Origin: Rhizobiales bacterium 62-17
GTDB taxonomy: Bacteria; Pseudomonadota; Alphaproteobacteria; Rhizobiales; Beijerinckiaceae
DNA: 64,000 bases
NCBI GenBank assembly: GCA_001898965.1
Contig: MKVW01000005.1
Span: forward strand, 186,001-250,000
Reading direction: 5' to 3'
Every line of letters begins with the position of its first letter. The stretch's first letter is position 1. The notes under the pieces are model-generated. The model did no database searches, was not told where the DNA came from, and saw nothing but the letters and a program-made list of their open reading frames with translations. This document shows positions 2,588-16,723 of the stretch, piece by piece. The translations under genes and the position numbers were made by a program.

Positions 2588-3802
2588 TCAGGCCGACATG
2601 GCCTTCTTCAGGTTTTCGTCGATCTTGTCGAGGAAACCGGTGGTCGACAGCCACTTCTGATCGGCGCTCACCAGGATGGCCAAATCCTTGGTCATGAAGC
2701 CCGATTCGACCGTGTCGACGCAGACCTTTTCGAGGGTCTGGGCGAACTTCATCAGCTCGTTGTTGCCGTCAAGCTTGGCGCGGTGCATCAGGCCGCGGGT
2801 CCAGGCGAAGATCGAGGCCATCGAATTGGTCGAGGTCTCCTTGCCCTGCTGGTGCTGGCGATAGTGGCGGGTGACGGTGCCATGCGCCGCTTCCGCTTCC
2901 ACCGTCTTGCCATCGGGCGTGGCCAGAACCGAGGTCATCAGGCCGAGCGAGCCGTAGCCCTGGGCGACCGTGTCGGACTGGACGTCGCCGTCGTAGTTCT
3001 TACAGGCCCAGACGTAGCCGCCCGACCACTTCAGCGCGGCCGCGACCATGTCGTCGATCAGGCGGTGTTCGTAGGTGAGGCCGGCGGCCTTGAACTTGTC
3101 GGCGAATTCCTTGTCGAACACTTCCTGGAAGATGTCCTTGAAGCGGCCGTCGTAGACTTTCAGGATGGTGTTCTTGGTCGACAGGTAGACCGGATAGTTG
3201 CGGGCCAGGCCGTAGTTCAGCGAGGCGCGGGCGAAATCACGGATCGAATCGTCGAGGTTGTACATCGACATGGCGACACCGGCGCCCGGGAACTTGAACA
3301 CTTCCTTCTCGATGACCGTGCCGTCTTCGCCTTCGAACTTGATCGTCAGGCGGCCCTTGCCGGGGATTTTCAGATCGGTGGCGCGATACTGGTCGCCATA
3401 GGCGTGGCGGCCGACGACGATCGGCTGCGTCCAGCCCGGCACGAGGCGGGGAATGTTCTTGCAGATGATCGGCTCACGGAAAATCGTGCCGCCGAGGATG
3501 TTGCGGATCGTGCCGTTCGGCGACTTCCACATTTCCTTGAGGTTGAATTCCTTCACGCGCGCTTCGTCGGGGGTGATCGTGGCGCACTTCACGGCGACGC
3601 CGTATTTCTTCGTCGCTTCGGCGGCGTCGATGGTGATCTGGTCGTTGGTCTCGTCGCGCTTCTCAACCGACAGATCGTAATATTTCAGGTCGATGTCGAG
3701 ATAGGGATGGATAAGCTTGTCTTTGATGAGCTGCCAAATGATGCGGGTCATTTCGTCGCCGTCCATTTCGACGACCGGATTGGCGACCTTGATCTTCTGC
3801 AT
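2588..3802 (-). CDS. icd: Isocitrate dehydrogenase, NADP-dependent
   Basis: 404 residues, starting [20 protein letters not shown]. It converts isocitrate to 2-oxoglutarate and CO2 in the TCA cycle, with reduction of NADP. The sequence is of the homodimeric eukaryote-like type (IDH subfamily II) common in alphaproteobacteria: [19 protein letters not shown] gives the substrate-binding Ser/Asn/Arg cluster, and [17 protein letters not shown] lies in the cofactor-binding region. It is a single gene with its own terminator and a 286-bp upstream gap shared with the divergent binding-protein cluster. Length and motifs are complete. Confidence 0.95.
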
Positions 3803-10838: not shown

Positions 10839-11714
10839 GTGGTCGGCGCAGGCACGAATAAAACGCAAACCAATATCGCCGGCGGCCCGGCCGTCATCCT
10901 GGTGCGACCGCAGCTTGCGGTGAACATCGGCATGTGCGCGCGGGCGATGGCCAATTTCGGCCTCGACGATCTGCGCCTGGTCAATCCGCGTGAGGGCTGG
11001 CCGCGCACGGGCGCTTTGCGCAAGGGCGCCAATGCGGCCGCCGCTGGCGCGGTGCATCTGCTGGAAGGCGCGAAACTCTACGACAGCCTGGAAGAGGCGG
11101 TCGCCGATCTTAATTTTGTCTGGGCGACGACCGCGCGCGAACGTGGCCAGGGCAAGCGGGTCGAAGCGCCTGAGGTCGCCATGCGCGAGACCCAGGCGGG
11201 TGTCGTCACGGGCGCCAAGCACGGCATTCTCTTCGGCCCCGAGCGCACCGGGCTCGACAGCGACGAGGTGGCGCTCGCCGATGCCATCATCACCTTCCCG
11301 GTCAATCCGGCCTATGCATCGCTGAATCTGGCGCAGGCGGTGTTGCTCACCGGCTATGAGTGGTTCCGCGCCGCCCATGGCAGCGCGATGCCTTTCGCCA
11401 CGCCGGAACGCTCGCATCCAGCAACGCGCGAGATGATCGTGTCCTTCTTCGCCTATTTCGAGAGCAAGCTCGAAGAGGGCGGCTTCTTCCGGCCGGCGAG
11501 CAAAAGGCCGAGCATGCAGCGCAATCTGCGCAACATGTTCCACCGCATGCAATTGACCGAACAGGACGTGCGCACCCTGTGGGGCGCCATCGTGCGCATC
11601 GCCGAAGGGCCGCGGCTCGAAGCCAAGACGCGGCGGCGACAGAAACAGAAACAAGAAGAGGCCGAGACTGGTCAAGAAGGCGAGAGCGCGCTAGGCAAGC
11701 CGGGAGACGAATAA
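10839..11714 (+). CDS. trmJ: tRNA/rRNA 2'-O-methyltransferase, TrmJ type (SpoU family)
   Basis: 291 residues from GTG 10839. The SPOUT (trefoil-knot) SAM-dependent fold is indicated by the three family motifs: NIGMCARAMANFGL, HGILFGPERTGLDSDE and PVNPAYASLNLAQAVLLTGYE. TrmJ methylates the ribose at position 32 of certain tRNAs. A C-terminal extension of about 90 residues, ending in a very basic and acidic tail (RRRQKQKQEEAE), follows the domain, as in other TrmJ proteins. It lies 26 bp before the hydrolase gene on the same strand, so they may be co-transcribed. Confidence 0.88.
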   Translation: MVGAGTNKTQTNIAGGPAVILVRPQLAVNIGMCARAMANFGLDDLRLVNPREGWPRTGALRKGANAAAAGAVHLLEGAKLYDSLEEAVADLNFVWATTARERGQGKRVEAPEVAMRETQAGVVTGAKHGILFGPERTGLDSDEVALADAIITFPVNPAYASLNLAQAVLLTGYEWFRAAHGSAMPFATPERSHPATREMIVSFFAYFESKLEEGGFFRPASKRPSMQRNLRNMFHRMQLTEQDVRTLWGAIVRIAEGPRLEAKTRRRQKQKQEEAETGQEGESALGKPGDE

Positions 11715-11740: not shown

Positions 11741-12466
11741 ATGACCATTCTCTTGGTGCATGGCGCGTGGGCAGGCGCGTGGTCGTGGCGCGATACGGCG
11801 CGGCTGTTGCGTAAACAGGGCTTCGATGTCTATGCGCCGTCGATGACCGGCATCGCCGAGCGTTCCCATGTCGATCCCCGTCAGGTGACGTTGTCGACGC
11901 ATATCGCCGATATTTCAGGCCTGATGCGTTATGAGGAATTGGAGAACGTTCTGGTCGTCGGGCACAGCTACGGCGGCATGGTGATCACCGGCGCGGTCGA
12001 TCGCGAACCGCAGCGTGTCGCCGGCATGGTTTATCTCGATGCCTTCCTGCCCAAGAGTGGGCAATCGCTGTGGGACATCGCCGGTCCCGAACGTGTCGAA
12101 ATGCAGAAGAAGGGGGCGATGGCGCATGACGGCGGTTTTTCGGTGCCGCGCCCCAACGTGCCGCCGATGCCGCCGGAACTGGCGGCCAAATGGGGGCCTC
12201 TTTTCACGCCGCAGCCCATCGGCACCATGTCGGAAAAATGGACCTCGGTGCGGCCGGAGGCTGAGCGCATCTGGCCGCGTCGCCACTACATTCTCTGCAC
12301 GGCCTACAAGGGCTCGCCCTTCTATCAATTCGCCGATGAAGTGAAGGGCAAGCCCGATTGGGACTACAGCGAATTCGATGCGTTGCACGACGTGGTGCGT
12401 TCGCATCCGGAGATGACGGCCAACCGCATCGCCGAGATCGCGCGAGGGTGGGGCGTCAAAGAGTAG
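11741..12466 (+). CDS. Alpha/beta hydrolase (small esterase type)
   Basis: 241 residues from ATG 11741 with GGGAGGAAACGG upstream. It starts TILLVHGAWAGAWSW (oxyanion region HGAW). The nucleophile elbow is VVGHSYGGMV with the catalytic Ser, and a C-terminal His (DVVRSHPEM) is the likely base. The sequence resembles the salicylate esterase/hydroxynitrile lyase-like group of cytoplasmic alpha/beta hydrolases. No signal peptide. The substrate cannot be told. Its 3' end overlaps the 3' end of convergent murD2 by 11 bp. Confidence 0.82.
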   Translation: MTILLVHGAWAGAWSWRDTARLLRKQGFDVYAPSMTGIAERSHVDPRQVTLSTHIADISGLMRYEELENVLVVGHSYGGMVITGAVDREPQRVAGMVYLDAFLPKSGQSLWDIAGPERVEMQKKGAMAHDGGFSVPRPNVPPMPPELAAKWGPLFTPQPIGTMSEKWTSVRPEAERIWPRRHYILCTAYKGSPFYQFADEVKGKPDWDYSEFDALHDVVRSHPEMTANRIAEIARGWGVKE

Positions 12467-13763
12467 TCGCCAGCTCCTTGAAGCGGTCGCCGCGTTCCTC
12501 GAAATTGCGGAACTGGCCGAAGCTCGGTGCCGCCGGGGAGAGCATGATGACGCCATCTTGCGGCGCGCGCGCCATGGCTTCGCGCACGGCCTGCTGAAGA
12601 TCGTCGACCGGCACGATGGGGAAGGGCCAGGTGCGATCCTGCATCTCCTCGGCAATGCGCCGGCCGGTGTCGGGCAGCAGCAGTAATGCCGAAAGGCCGG
12701 CGCCCGGCAGATAATCGAGCAGCGCCGCGTGGTTCTGGCCGCGATCGTTGCCACCGAGAATGAGCACGCAGGGCAGACCGCGATAGGCTTCGAGCGCGAC
12801 GAGGGTGGCCTCCGGCACAGTCGAGATCGAATCGTTGACGCAGAGCACGCCATTGCTGGCGCGGAACTCTTCCTGGCGATGACGCAATTGCGCGAAGTCG
12901 GGAATGGCGACGCGTTCGCGCAATCCCGTCACGCCGAGATCGTCGGCCACCGCGCAGGCGGCGGCGAGATTTTCCAGATTGTGATTGCCGCGCAGCGGGA
13001 ACTGGCTGGTGTCGACTTTCTGCTGCCGGAAGAACAGCGCACCGTCGCGCACATGGAAGCCGTCGTCGCGATTGTACCACAGCACGTTGGCGCGCTGAGC
13101 CGCATGCGTGCGCAGGCCTTCGTTGCCGTGATTGAGGACGGCGCGCGTTTTAGCGTCGGCGATCAAACGCAGTTTATCGGCATGATATTGCGCGATCGAG
13201 CCGTGCCAGGGCACGTGATCGACATAGAGATTGGTGATCACCGCGATGGAGGGCGCGTGGGCAAGGTCGGCGATCTGGTAGGACGACAGTTCCAGCACCG
13301 TGTGATCGCGGCCAGCCTTCTGGCCCAGGGCTGCAACACCGACATTGCCGAGCAGCGCCACGTCGCGTCCCGCCTGGCGCAGGATGTGATCGATGAGCCG
13401 CGAAGTCGTGCTCTTGCCCTTGGTGCCGGTCACGGCAATGGTGTGGGCCTTGGCGTTTTCCTCGAACCACAGATTGGTGGCCGAAGTGATCGTCGCGCCG
13501 CGTGCGCGGGCGGCTGTCGCTTCCTCACGATAAAGGCTGATGCCGGGGCTTTTGACGATCAAGTCGAAAGCCTCGCTGCGCAGCGCCTGTCCTGCCGCCT
13601 CGCCGGTGACGGTACGAACGTCAGCCGGTGGCGGGATATCGAGGGGCGTGTCGTTCAAGACCGCGAATGTGTCGGCCGGATGCAGCGCCTGCAGGTGGGC
13701 AAGCGCCGCCTGGCCTTCGCGGCCATAGCCCCAGATGGCGATGGTGCGCGGCTTAGCGGACAT
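12456..13763 (-). CDS. murD2: UDP-N-acetylmuramoyl-L-alanine--L-glutamate ligase MurD2
   Basis: 435 residues from ATG 13763; in-frame ATGs at 13769 and 13784 are possible, and all lie inside the 3' end of murL, so translation is probably coupled. It is a Mur ligase with N-terminal nucleotide-sugar motif IAIWGYGREGQA, P-loop VTGTKGKSTT (about 111-120), central NLYVDHVPWHG and C-terminal CVNDSISTVPEATL, LILGGNDRG and MLSPAAPSFGQF. These follow Xanthomonas MurD2 as I remember it (WGYGREG, NDSIST, GG.DRG, LSP.APSFG) more than housekeeping MurD. MurD2 adds L-Glu, not D-Glu, to UDP-MurNAc-L-Ala. The tight pairing with murL supports this; ordinary MurD is the alternative. Confidence 0.82.
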   Translation of the reverse strand: MSAKPRTIAIWGYGREGQAALAHLQALHPADTFAVLNDTPLDIPPPADVRTVTGEAAGQALRSEAFDLIVKSPGISLYREEATAARARGATITSATNLWFEENAKAHTIAVTGTKGKSTTSRLIDHILRQAGRDVALLGNVGVAALGQKAGRDHTVLELSSYQIADLAHAPSIAVITNLYVDHVPWHGSIAQYHADKLRLIADAKTRAVLNHGNEGLRTHAAQRANVLWYNRDDGFHVRDGALFFRQQKVDTSQFPLRGNHNLENLAAACAVADDLGVTGLRERVAIPDFAQLRHRQEEFRASNGVLCVNDSISTVPEATLVALEAYRGLPCVLILGGNDRGQNHAALLDYLPGAGLSALLLLPDTGRRIAEEMQDRTWPFPIVPVDDLQQAVREAMARAPQDGVIMLSPAAPSFGQFRNFEERGDRFKELATTL

Positions 13764-15117
13764 AGGCATCGAGCATGGCGGCATAGCGCGGTGGCAAGGC
13801 GTGATCGGGCGACGGCGTCATCAACTCGTCCCAGATCTCCTGCCAGTTCGGCATCAAGGGCTTGAGGCGTGGCGCCAGCGCGCGAATGATCGCGGCGTCC
13901 TGCCATTCGGGTCGTTCGGCGAGACGCAGCAGCGCGGCGCCGGATTCGGCGATCTCGCCGACGCATTCCCATGGCTTGTGGCCGGAGAGGCCCATCAATT
14001 CCTCATAGCCCTGGATCTGCGATGGATCGTCGAGCATGTTCTTGCCGAGGATGCCTTCGATGCGCGGCTTCTCCATCGCATTGGCGAGGATGAGGAAGGT
14101 GAAGCGGCACTTCGGGCAATCGCCGCACCAGCGCTTCGGCTCCTCTTTCGGATTGATCTGGAAGGCGCGGTTGCAGGAGGTGAAGGCGTGGTCGTAGCGG
14201 CTGACGCGTGCCATCAACTGGCCGATATGGGCTTCCGATAAAGGCCGCAGCAGCGAGAAATAGATGAGGCCTTTGTCGATGTGGCTTCTCACATAGGCTG
14301 ACAGATCGCGCTCGGCGCCGGTGGTCTTGGAGAACTGGTGATTGATGTCGCGGCCATCGACATTGACATTGCCTTGGTCGGCGGAGCGCTCGTTCGACAG
14401 GATCACCGTATCGAAGCCGTAAACAAAACTCGCCGCCAGCGCGATGAAACTGACGATGGCGGTGATCGGCACATGGCCGTTGAGCGCGCCCTTCTCGTTC
14501 AGTTCGAACAGCAGCGGATCGAGCTTGCGTGTTACCTTGGCGAAGGGCAGGCCGCTGGCGGCGGCGGATTCGAGAATGGGCTTTTTCGGATTGACGGCGA
14601 ACAGGCTCATCGGTTCGCCGCCGGCACGCAGCATTTCGACCGAGACGAGCGAATCCTTGCCGCCGCCGATCAGCACGGCGGCGCGGCGTGTCAGCGGCGC
14701 GGTGCCGGCGCTGCGCACCGGGCGGGTATTGTCAAAACGGGCGTTGAGGAAATCGACGCGCGCCGCGACGTCGAGCTTGTTGCGCACGCCGAATTCGCCG
14801 AGCCCGTCGACATAGAGGGTCTGGAAGAAGCGGCGCTGTTCGTCATCAAGGCTGGCGCCGCGAATGATGAGATGCCGGGGCAGGCAGGTCTTGTAATAGG
14901 AGACACCGGCCAGGATGTGCAGGGCCTCGAGCGCCGCCTCGAAACCCGGACGCAGCGGCGAGCCGGCTGAGGGTAGCGGTGTCTCGAAGGTCAGGCGCTC
15001 GGTGAAGGCGATCGTGTCGCCCAGCCGATAGTTCAGCGCCACTTCGCGCGCCGTCTCGTCGATGGCGAAACCGTCGAAAGTGAATGTGTCGGGCCAGTCA
15101 ATCATGGGATCTTGCAT
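13753..15117 (-). CDS. murL: UDP-MurNAc-L-Ala-L-Glu epimerase MurL
   Basis: 454 residues from ATG 15117 (450 from 15105); a reading from 15324 would overrun the divergent DsrE gene. MurL inverts the terminal L-Glu of UDP-MurNAc-L-Ala-L-Glu to D-Glu, replacing glutamate racemase in Xanthomonas. Visible features: a PP-loop-like IGGGKDSLVSVEML near residues 150-163, VILSNERSADQGN, and a cysteine cluster RWCGDCPKCRFTFLIL near 330. The gene overlaps murD2 by 11 bp in the order epimerase-ligase, a pairing that fits the two consecutive steps. Assignment is from recognition of the family; a biochemical test is lacking. Confidence 0.82.
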   Translation of the reverse strand: MQDPMIDWPDTFTFDGFAIDETAREVALNYRLGDTIAFTERLTFETPLPSAGSPLRPGFEAALEALHILAGVSYYKTCLPRHLIIRGASLDDEQRRFFQTLYVDGLGEFGVRNKLDVAARVDFLNARFDNTRPVRSAGTAPLTRRAAVLIGGGKDSLVSVEMLRAGGEPMSLFAVNPKKPILESAAASGLPFAKVTRKLDPLLFELNEKGALNGHVPITAIVSFIALAASFVYGFDTVILSNERSADQGNVNVDGRDINHQFSKTTGAERDLSAYVRSHIDKGLIYFSLLRPLSEAHIGQLMARVSRYDHAFTSCNRAFQINPKEEPKRWCGDCPKCRFTFLILANAMEKPRIEGILGKNMLDDPSQIQGYEELMGLSGHKPWECVGEIAESGAALLRLAERPEWQDAAIIRALAPRLKPLMPNWQEIWDELMTPSPDHALPPRYAAMLDAYVR

Positions 15118-15721: not shown

Positions 15722-16723
15722 ATGCCGCAGAACAAGGCGTTCATTCTGGCTTCGCGGCCGTCGCGCGAGGTGCCGGCGGGGCCGCATAATTTTCAGCTCG
15801 TCGAGAGTGAAACCGCTGCGCCCGGCGAGGGCGAGGTGCTGGTGCGCCATCATTATCTGTCGCTCGATCCCTACATGCGCGGGCGGATGAACGACGGCAA
15901 ATCCTATGCGCAGCCGCAGCCCCTGGGCGAGGTGATGATCGGCGGCACGGTGGGCGAGGTGGTGGCCTCGCGCAATCCGCGCTTCGCCGTCGGCGATCGC
16001 GTGGTCGGCACCGGCGGCTGGCAGCTTTATGGCCTCAGCGACGGCAAGGGCCTGCGCAAGATCGAGCCGGGCACGCCGATCCAGGCGTGGCTTGGGCCGG
16101 TCGGCATGCCCGGTGTCACCGCCTGGTATGGGGTCACGAAGATCATCGCGCCGAAGGCCGGAGAGACCGTTCTGGTGTCGGCGGCGACCGGTGCCGTTGG
16201 CTCGGTCGTCGGGCAATTGGTGAAACTGGCGGGCGCACGCGCCGTCGGTATCGCCGGTGGGCCGGAGAAGTGCGCCTTCGCGGTCAGCGATCTTGGCTAT
16301 GACGCCTGCGTCGATCATCGCGATGCGGATTTTCCGGCGCGGCTGAAAGAAGCGCTGCCGGGCGGGATCAACGGCCTGTTCGAGAATGTCGGCGGCGAAC
16401 CGTTTCGCCAGGCGATGCGGCGGCTCAATCCGTTCTCGCGCATCGCGCTCTGCGGTCTCGTCTCATCTGGCTATGACGGCACGCCGACGCCATTGCCCGA
16501 CGTGCGCGTGCTGCTCGATACGCGTTCGCGCCTCGAAGGTTTCATCGTCTCCGATCATCTGTCCGTGTGGCCGCAGGCACTGTCGGAACTCGCCGGCCAC
16601 GTGGCCGCCGGGCGCCTACGTTGGCGCGAAACCGTGGCCGAGGGACTTGAGGCTGCGCCGCAGGCGTTTTTCGCCATGCTGAAGGGCGGCAATTTCGGCA
16701 AGCAATTGGTGAAGCTGGTCTGA
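15722..16723 (+). CDS. NADP-dependent oxidoreductase, zinc-free MDR family
   Basis: 333 residues. It is a medium-chain dehydrogenase/reductase of the prostaglandin/leukotriene reductase (CurA/YncB-like) group, which reduces alkenal or enone double bonds with NADPH. Evidence: YLSLDPYMRGRMND near the N-terminus; the Rossmann glycine motif SAATGAVGSVVGQ; GPEKC and DYDACVDHRD-like cofactor region; and FENVGGEPFR. It has no zinc-binding cysteines. It follows the DsrE gene by 3 bp and is convergent with the HxlR regulator, whose stop is 1 bp away. Confidence 0.88.
   Translation: MPQNKAFILASRPSREVPAGPHNFQLVESETAAPGEGEVLVRHHYLSLDPYMRGRMNDGKSYAQPQPLGEVMIGGTVGEVVASRNPRFAVGDRVVGTGGWQLYGLSDGKGLRKIEPGTPIQAWLGPVGMPGVTAWYGVTKIIAPKAGETVLVSAATGAVGSVVGQLVKLAGARAVGIAGGPEKCAFAVSDLGYDACVDHRDADFPARLKEALPGGINGLFENVGGEPFRQAMRRLNPFSRIALCGLVSSGYDGTPTPLPDVRVLLDTRSRLEGFIVSDHLSVWPQALSELAGHVAAGRLRWRETVAEGLEAAPQAFFAMLKGGNFGKQLVKLV

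Follow-up and report, generated by a model that had tools for sequence, protein, structure and literature searches.

Within the 64,000-nucleotide stretch of DNA analysed here (the window), taken from contig MKVW01000005.1 of Rhizobiales bacterium 62-17, two minus-strand genes encode a ligase of the MurD type, MurD2 (12456..13763), and a homologue of MurL (13753..15117). There is little doubt that this pair would serve as the route to D-glutamate (D-Glu) for peptidoglycan, very likely as the only such route in the cell. The basis for this reading is homology of both genes to their families, the lack of a match to the glutamate racemase gene murI in the genome, the absence of murD from the division and cell wall (dcw) cluster, a neighbourhood shared by about half of the congeners that carry MurL, and the mutual exclusion of the two routes within the genus.

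The MurD2-MurL pathway itself has been published. Biochemical studies of MurD2 (XOO_1320) and MurL (XOO_1319) of Xanthomonas oryzae are on record (PMC8788868, PMC5808125). In the former, MurL is reported to consume one ATP with formation of AMP and to act in the L-to-D direction alone, with adenylation of the α-carboxylate as a proposed step (PMC8788868). In the bacterium studied here, MurD2 would attach L-glutamate (L-Glu) first, the residue being inverted afterwards. MurL would then convert the attached L-Glu to D-Glu in one direction, with ATP going to AMP, probably by way of α-carboxylate adenylation, and MurE would continue as usual. The activities of the two enzymes, the step through an adenylate and the lack of any other enzyme supplying D-Glu are predicted here. 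The pathway of the window is ordinary in kind; the exchange of routes within the genus is the part worth following.

The gene pair and the supply of D-glutamate

The matches of both genes to their family models, obtained by profile search, are far beyond chance. The ligase scores 304 bits with the murD model TIGR01087 (cut-off 211.95). The MurL homologue (454 aa) matches the MurL model NF041275 over its full length, residues 11–451 aligning with model positions 9–445 of 447 (426 bits, E 1.2e-127), though below the model cut-off of 700 bits. When the ligase is started at ATG 13763 (435 aa; an alternative ATG at 13784 would give 442 aa), it overlaps by 11 bp with the MurL frame, whose stop is at 13753. 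The better start is 13763, because the same overlap recurs in seven other loci (L010, L092, L093, L094, L095, L097 and L100; starts chosen mechanically). GGGKDS, NGH, SCN and WC..CPKC are invariant in all 41 MurL proteins aligned (of 88 then collected), and the exact string CGDCPKC occurs in 32 of them. A preliminary description of the window had noted two minus-strand genes overlapping by 11 bp, had named motifs in each, and had identified them as MurD2 and MurL. The coordinates confirm the arrangement, the motifs are found in both translations, and the identification is supported by the family models, by the position of the ligase in a MurL-linked group, and by the genome context.

The genome is 5.66 Mb in 9 contigs and 99.3% complete. 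Profile searches with the murI model TIGR00067 gave no match in it. Of 14 control genomes, 10 gave a match in the same search, 8 of them over the cut-off, and so did all 19 further genomes sampled from its family, none with an E-value above 2.5e-42. Only one MurD-type ligase exceeds the cut-off, and this is the ligase of the window; there are six further matches below it, four of which lie in the dcw cluster, and a second MurD-type ligase was accordingly rejected. The cluster reads ftsI-murE-murF-mraY-ftsW-murG-murC-murB-ddl-ftsQ-ftsA (most names assigned by eye), with murD absent between mraY and ftsW. No D-amino-acid transaminase was found over the cut-off of TIGR01121, which is strict, being exceeded by only one of the 14 control genomes. 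Two class IV aminotransferase genes match below it. One exceeds ilvE-type cut-offs; the other is pabC-like, is below all cut-offs shown and stands beside a pabB-like gene. Neither was accepted as a D-amino-acid transaminase. The preliminary description had asked whether murI and a second murD are still present, and had named a D-amino-acid transaminase (dat) and a murD of the dcw cluster as genes to look for. These searches answer it: no match for murI, no transaminase and no second MurD-type ligase over the cut-off, and a dcw cluster that lacks murD.

The ligase and the choice between L- and D-glutamate

In a quick tree of 78 ligases, for which long-branch warnings were issued, a single branch with a support of 100 in the Shimodaira-Hasegawa-like approximate likelihood-ratio test (SH-aLRT) separates 57 MurL-linked enzymes from 21 MurD proteins of the dcw type (of 41 collected). 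The ligase of the window groups with the MurL-linked enzymes. It does not fall with dcw MurD, a position that the preliminary description had named as counting against MurD2. The MurD2 proteins of the genus form one group (support 97).

Two residues are of particular interest, since in Xanthomonas MurD2 either replacement alone, E197D or R358K, is reported to alter the stereospecificity, and the two combined to bring a complete switch to D-Glu (PMC8788868). Positions were mapped on an aligned Escherichia coli chain. At the position of E. coli K348 and X. oryzae R358, arginine is present in 57/57 MurL-linked ligases, among them that of the window (R341), and lysine in 41/41 dcw ligases. At the position of E. 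coli D182 and X. oryzae E197, aspartate is found in 41/41 dcw ligases; the MurL-linked ligases have glutamate in 42 and aspartate in 15, so glutamate at this position is no family-defining mark. All 10 ligases of the sub-clade to which the window belongs are among the 15. With one determinant kept and the other absent, the preference of the window ligase for L-Glu, which is the predicted one, rests on kinship and context.

The pair resembles that of X. oryzae in consisting of adjacent genes of the same families, in the lack of a murI match in the genome and in the arginine at the R358 position. It differs in having aspartate, throughout the window's sub-clade, where X. oryzae MurD2 has E197, and in occupying the neighbourhood in which members of its genus keep murI. 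Kinship to the Xanthomonas pair was judged from the NCBIfam model and from Lysobacterales bins.

Several points weigh against the pair as the sole route to D-Glu. The MurL score falls short of the 700-bit cut-off; the model bears the name of Xanthomonadales, however, and that value is not reached in any of the 397 genomes searched in the order. The window ligase has D182, so that one of the two published determinants of L-Glu use is missing. The alternative suppliers covered were the murI, D-amino-acid transaminase and Asp/Glu-racemase families; broad-spectrum racemases were not searched for. One Asp/Glu-racemase-family gene is present, on contig C9 of the same genome (G000; L007:1465-2214, minus strand), beside what appears by eye to be a permease-like gene. 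It scores 102 bits with TIGR00035 (cut-off 93.1) and reads TAVTAH at a site presumably occupied by the catalytic cysteine in this family, while a cysteine is kept in LACTEL. Together with the two aminotransferases it is an imperfect rival for the supply of D-Glu. That such an enzyme can assume this function is seen in Vibrio fischeri, in which the aspartate racemase RacD, if overexpressed, can supply D-Glu (PMC12502697).

An alternative would make the window ligase an ordinary MurD that takes its D-Glu from another racemase, either the one on contig C9 or a broad-spectrum enzyme, and would give MurL some other function. The racemase match over its cut-off, the aspartate at the D182 position and the precedent of RacD would all be consistent with it. 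It is nevertheless very improbable, for the ligase clusters with MurL-linked enzymes and has arginine at the K348 position, the loss of murI and of dcw murD goes with MurL throughout the genus, and the C9 racemase has TAVTAH at the site in question, even if its LACTEL cysteine is kept.

Exchange of the two routes within the genus

Among 51 genomes of the genus, 24 have MurL without MurI over the cut-off, 23 have MurI without an intact MurL, and four have neither. MurL matches were found in 25 (22 whole, two cut by contig ends in G485 and G491, and a fragment in G466) and MurI over the cut-off in 23. The two coincide only in G466, where the MurL match covers 98 positions at a contig start (E 1.3e-5) and tblastn with the window MurL gave nothing at E 1e-8. 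With G466 counted as MurI and relatedness ignored, the Fisher p for the two-by-two table is 1.3e-10. One MurL genome, G459, has a weak match to TIGR00067 (E 4.3e-4).

The ligases follow the same division. A MurD-type ligase over the cut-off, one in each genome, is present in 45 of the 51, scoring 224–304 bits in the 24 MurL genomes and 329–374 bits in 21 others. The gap between MraY and FtsW is 5–52 bp in all 16 MurL genomes measured, in which dcw murD is missing; in the other eight the stretch did not span both genes or was not fetched. It is 1385–1485 bp, the room of a murD, in 18/18 MurI genomes measured (of 23) and 1394–1465 bp in 8/8 outgroups. Canonical congeners such as G418 share with the window genome the neighbourhood in which their murI lies, but they form free D-Glu by a racemase, join it with a D182/K348 ligase, and have no MurL. 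As to the four genomes with neither route, dcw murD is missing from G494, where a fragment of MurD2 lies at the end of a contig; G448 sits with the MurL genomes on the dcw tree; and a murD of canonical type is present in G469 and G476.

Many of the congeners are incomplete or look like metagenome bins of hundreds of contigs, and G461 and G447 singly deserve caution; the pattern of the split is independent of either. A bin called Enterovirga, G504, was considered as a genome with two routes, as it has murI over the cut-off, a MurL truncated where its contig stops, a whole murD (359 bits) and a partial one (188 bits). It is probably a mixed bin. No prior description of a split between MurL and MurI within a genus was found in the PMC literature, a scope that leaves out subscription papers such as Feng 2017.

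The two routes also often share a place on the chromosome. In the window, icd, for NADP-dependent isocitrate dehydrogenase (2588..3802, minus strand; PRK08299, 785 bits), and a TrmJ/YjtD-like SpoU RNA methyltransferase (10839..11714, plus strand; SpoU_methylase 84 bits, TIGR00050 145 bits, below the cut-off of 167) are the landmarks of an icd - RNA methyltransferase - murI neighbourhood. Between the methyltransferase and the pair is an α/β hydrolase (11741..12466, plus strand; Abhydrolase_6, 68.5 bits), which is also near murI in several congeners. The right-hand neighbour, a curcumin-reductase-like oxidoreductase (15722..16723, plus strand; NF058644, 372 bits, below the cut-off of 440), is near murI in some. 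Of the MurI loci fetched (14 of 23), 10 carry the methyltransferase upstream of murI, both genes being on one strand, and none of the 14 lacks all three of methyltransferase, hydrolase and oxidoreductase. In 12 of the 24 MurL genomes, including that of the window, the methyltransferase faces the pair convergently; two have the hydrolase only (in G458 in the other orientation), and ten have neither marker. Most of these ten loci stop at the end of the contig or stretch, while G451, G453 and G461 continue for more than 3 kb past the ligase without markers. Since the methyltransferase is also near murI outside the genus (3 of 12 loci fetched, two with icd), murI is suggested to be the older occupant. 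None of eight Devosiaceae-like MurL loci has the genus neighbours, which speaks against a single acquisition in common with that family.

On the dcw tree, which includes 46 of the 51 genomes (no murC place is listed for G453, G469, G471, G485 and G491), three changes of MurL state are needed. A single MurL clade is rejected by the joint dcw genes at p 3.6e-73, or 2.8e-15 without G461, with G447 and G476 excluded for short contigs and G494 and G448 counted as MurL by inference. Taken singly, five of six genes reject it at p <0.05 (MurB 0.011) and Ddl does not (0.11); here G447 was excluded, G494 and G448 were counted as MurL and G476 as MurI. The window's sub-clade, B, is one group with a support of only 44 on a dcw tree of the joint test. 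The MurL proteins of the genus form one clade (support 100/99). Mean identities for MurL and dcw proteins are 0.81 and 0.87 within sub-clade A, 0.73 and 0.81 within B, and 0.63 and 0.74 between them; G447 does not fit. From these means the ratio of MurL to dcw divergence is 1.45 within A, 1.43 within B and 1.41 between them, with 1.51–1.59 for G461; for G447 it is 0.97 to A and 2.1 to B. The dcw MurD of the MurI congeners also diverges roughly in step (ratios 1.36–2.09 within the genus; no formal test). Searches for remnants of the missing route gave marginal matches only (E 0.007–0.05), in 2 of 25 MurL stretches and 2 of 26 MurI stretches.

Two genomes stand apart. G461 (L184, L276, L277) has a deep-branching MurL-MurD2 pair without the genus landmarks and without dcw murD, and lies among MurI congeners on the dcw tree. 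In G447 (L263, L233) the MurL belongs to sub-clade A but the dcw genes to sub-clade B, the result of a transfer or of a misbinned contig.

These data are compatible both with an ancestor that had two routes, followed by reciprocal loss, and with several old transfers. The ancestor of the genus may have had murI and murD together with MurD2-MurL near the icd slot, with one or the other lost in each lineage, a history given close to an even chance. The same neighbourhood and orientation in sub-clades A and B, the near-constant ratio of divergence over A, B and G461, the dcw MurD roughly in step, and the single clades of MurL and of MurD2 in the genus are all in agreement with it. However, no genome of the 51 has both routes intact, the missing route has left no clear trace, both routes would have to have been maintained over several splits, and G447 breaks the constant ratio. 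Alternatively, MurD2-MurL may have passed between lineages several times, replacing murI in place through recombination in the flanks, with dcw murD lost afterwards. Such transfer is a serious possibility that falls somewhat short of probable. It would account for the three or more changes required by host-gene trees and their rejection of one MurL clade, for G461 with its pair free of landmarks among MurI genomes, and for the mixed origin of G447. On the other hand, MurL and dcw genes diverge in step between A and B, so such transfer would have to be old, and the dcw contig of G447 is only 3 kb of a bin.

Whether it descends from a two-route ancestor or was passed around, the D-Glu route may tentatively be viewed as an either/or module, of which every lineage is left with one form, unlinked genes being lost together: murI near icd along with murD of the dcw cluster, or else the MurD2-MurL pair. 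If so, the two routes would be incompatible in one cell over time, and the ligases of the window's sub-clade, with aspartate and arginine at the two positions, would be natural half-switched enzymes. These ligases offer natural test cases for the choice between L- and D-Glu. The comparison of murI and MurL congeners, with a swap in the same neighbourhood and a linked loss of dcw murD, amounts to a natural experiment on the exchange of an essential cell-wall step, and the presence of MurL predicts which of these bacteria should be independent of MurI.

Range and relatives of MurL

The preliminary description had suggested that a rhizobial-type bacterium with this route would widen its known range. 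This claim to novelty was not supported, as orthologues of MurD2-MurL have been reported in Devosia and Pelagibacterium, which are Hyphomicrobiales, and in Micromonospora and others (PMC8788868, PMC5808125). The extension is at the level of family. MurL was found in 21 of 397 genomes of the order, namely that of the window and 20 of a Devosiaceae-like family (f6), and these two are the only MurL families among them; none of the 19 other sampled genomes of the window's own family has it. Each of the 20 has exactly one MurD-type ligase over the cut-off, adjoining MurL. A weak TIGR00067 match was seen in ten (best E 2.1e-11) and none in the other ten. Their MurL proteins group with that of Devosia faecipullorum. 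Relatives of the window MurL include that of Roseiarcaceae bacterium H3SJ34-1 (79% identical). Close kinship to Devosia MurL was not supported, the two falling in separate supported clades at 41–46% identity, with long-branch warnings. One Devosiaceae-like genome has a MurL match with one in-frame TAA (G093:C1:13140-14456). Several genomes of the order, for instance in the genera g66 (f18), g29 (f22) and g61 (f4), have a weak murI match or none, and no MurL either.

With respect to structure, the window MurL gave no match to Pfam at E 1, and the 41 aligned proteins matched nine families, one member each, at chance level (E 0.04–0.33). The only matches in the PDB up to E 10 were four TtuA-type sequences, the best at E 0.012, all at GGGKDS. 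By hhalign, MurL gave 70% with E. coli TtcA over 38 columns, about 5% with QueC, and 1.5% with a Mur-ligase control. TtuA, TtcA and QueC are PP-loop ATP pyrophosphatases, whose SGGKDS/SGGxDS loop resembles GGGKDS, and the conversion of ATP to AMP published for MurL would be in keeping with such enzymes. The match is limited to about 40 residues; it is a motif-level hint that MurL may be an AMP-forming, PP-loop-like enzyme. A closer relation to QueC, with a similar CGxCxxC motif, was set aside in view of the profile comparison and kept as a motif-level lead.

Of 88 loci, 79 have a MurD-type ligase next to MurL or fused to it (39 on the same strand, 38 on the opposite strand, one fused, and L076 at 170 bp). 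Eight of the others have no complete ligase frame on the stretch, although one of these, L016, has a ligase by tblastn, and in L068 the ligase is 3.3 kb away; L019, in which MurL is cut, was excluded from the count. In most Actinoplanes-type loci among L024-L089 the ligase adjoins MurL on the opposite strand, and the two do not form an operon. In a Dormiibacterota bin, an open frame of 869 aa (L085:1999-4608, plus strand) contains MurL followed by a MurD-type ligase, possibly a natural fusion.

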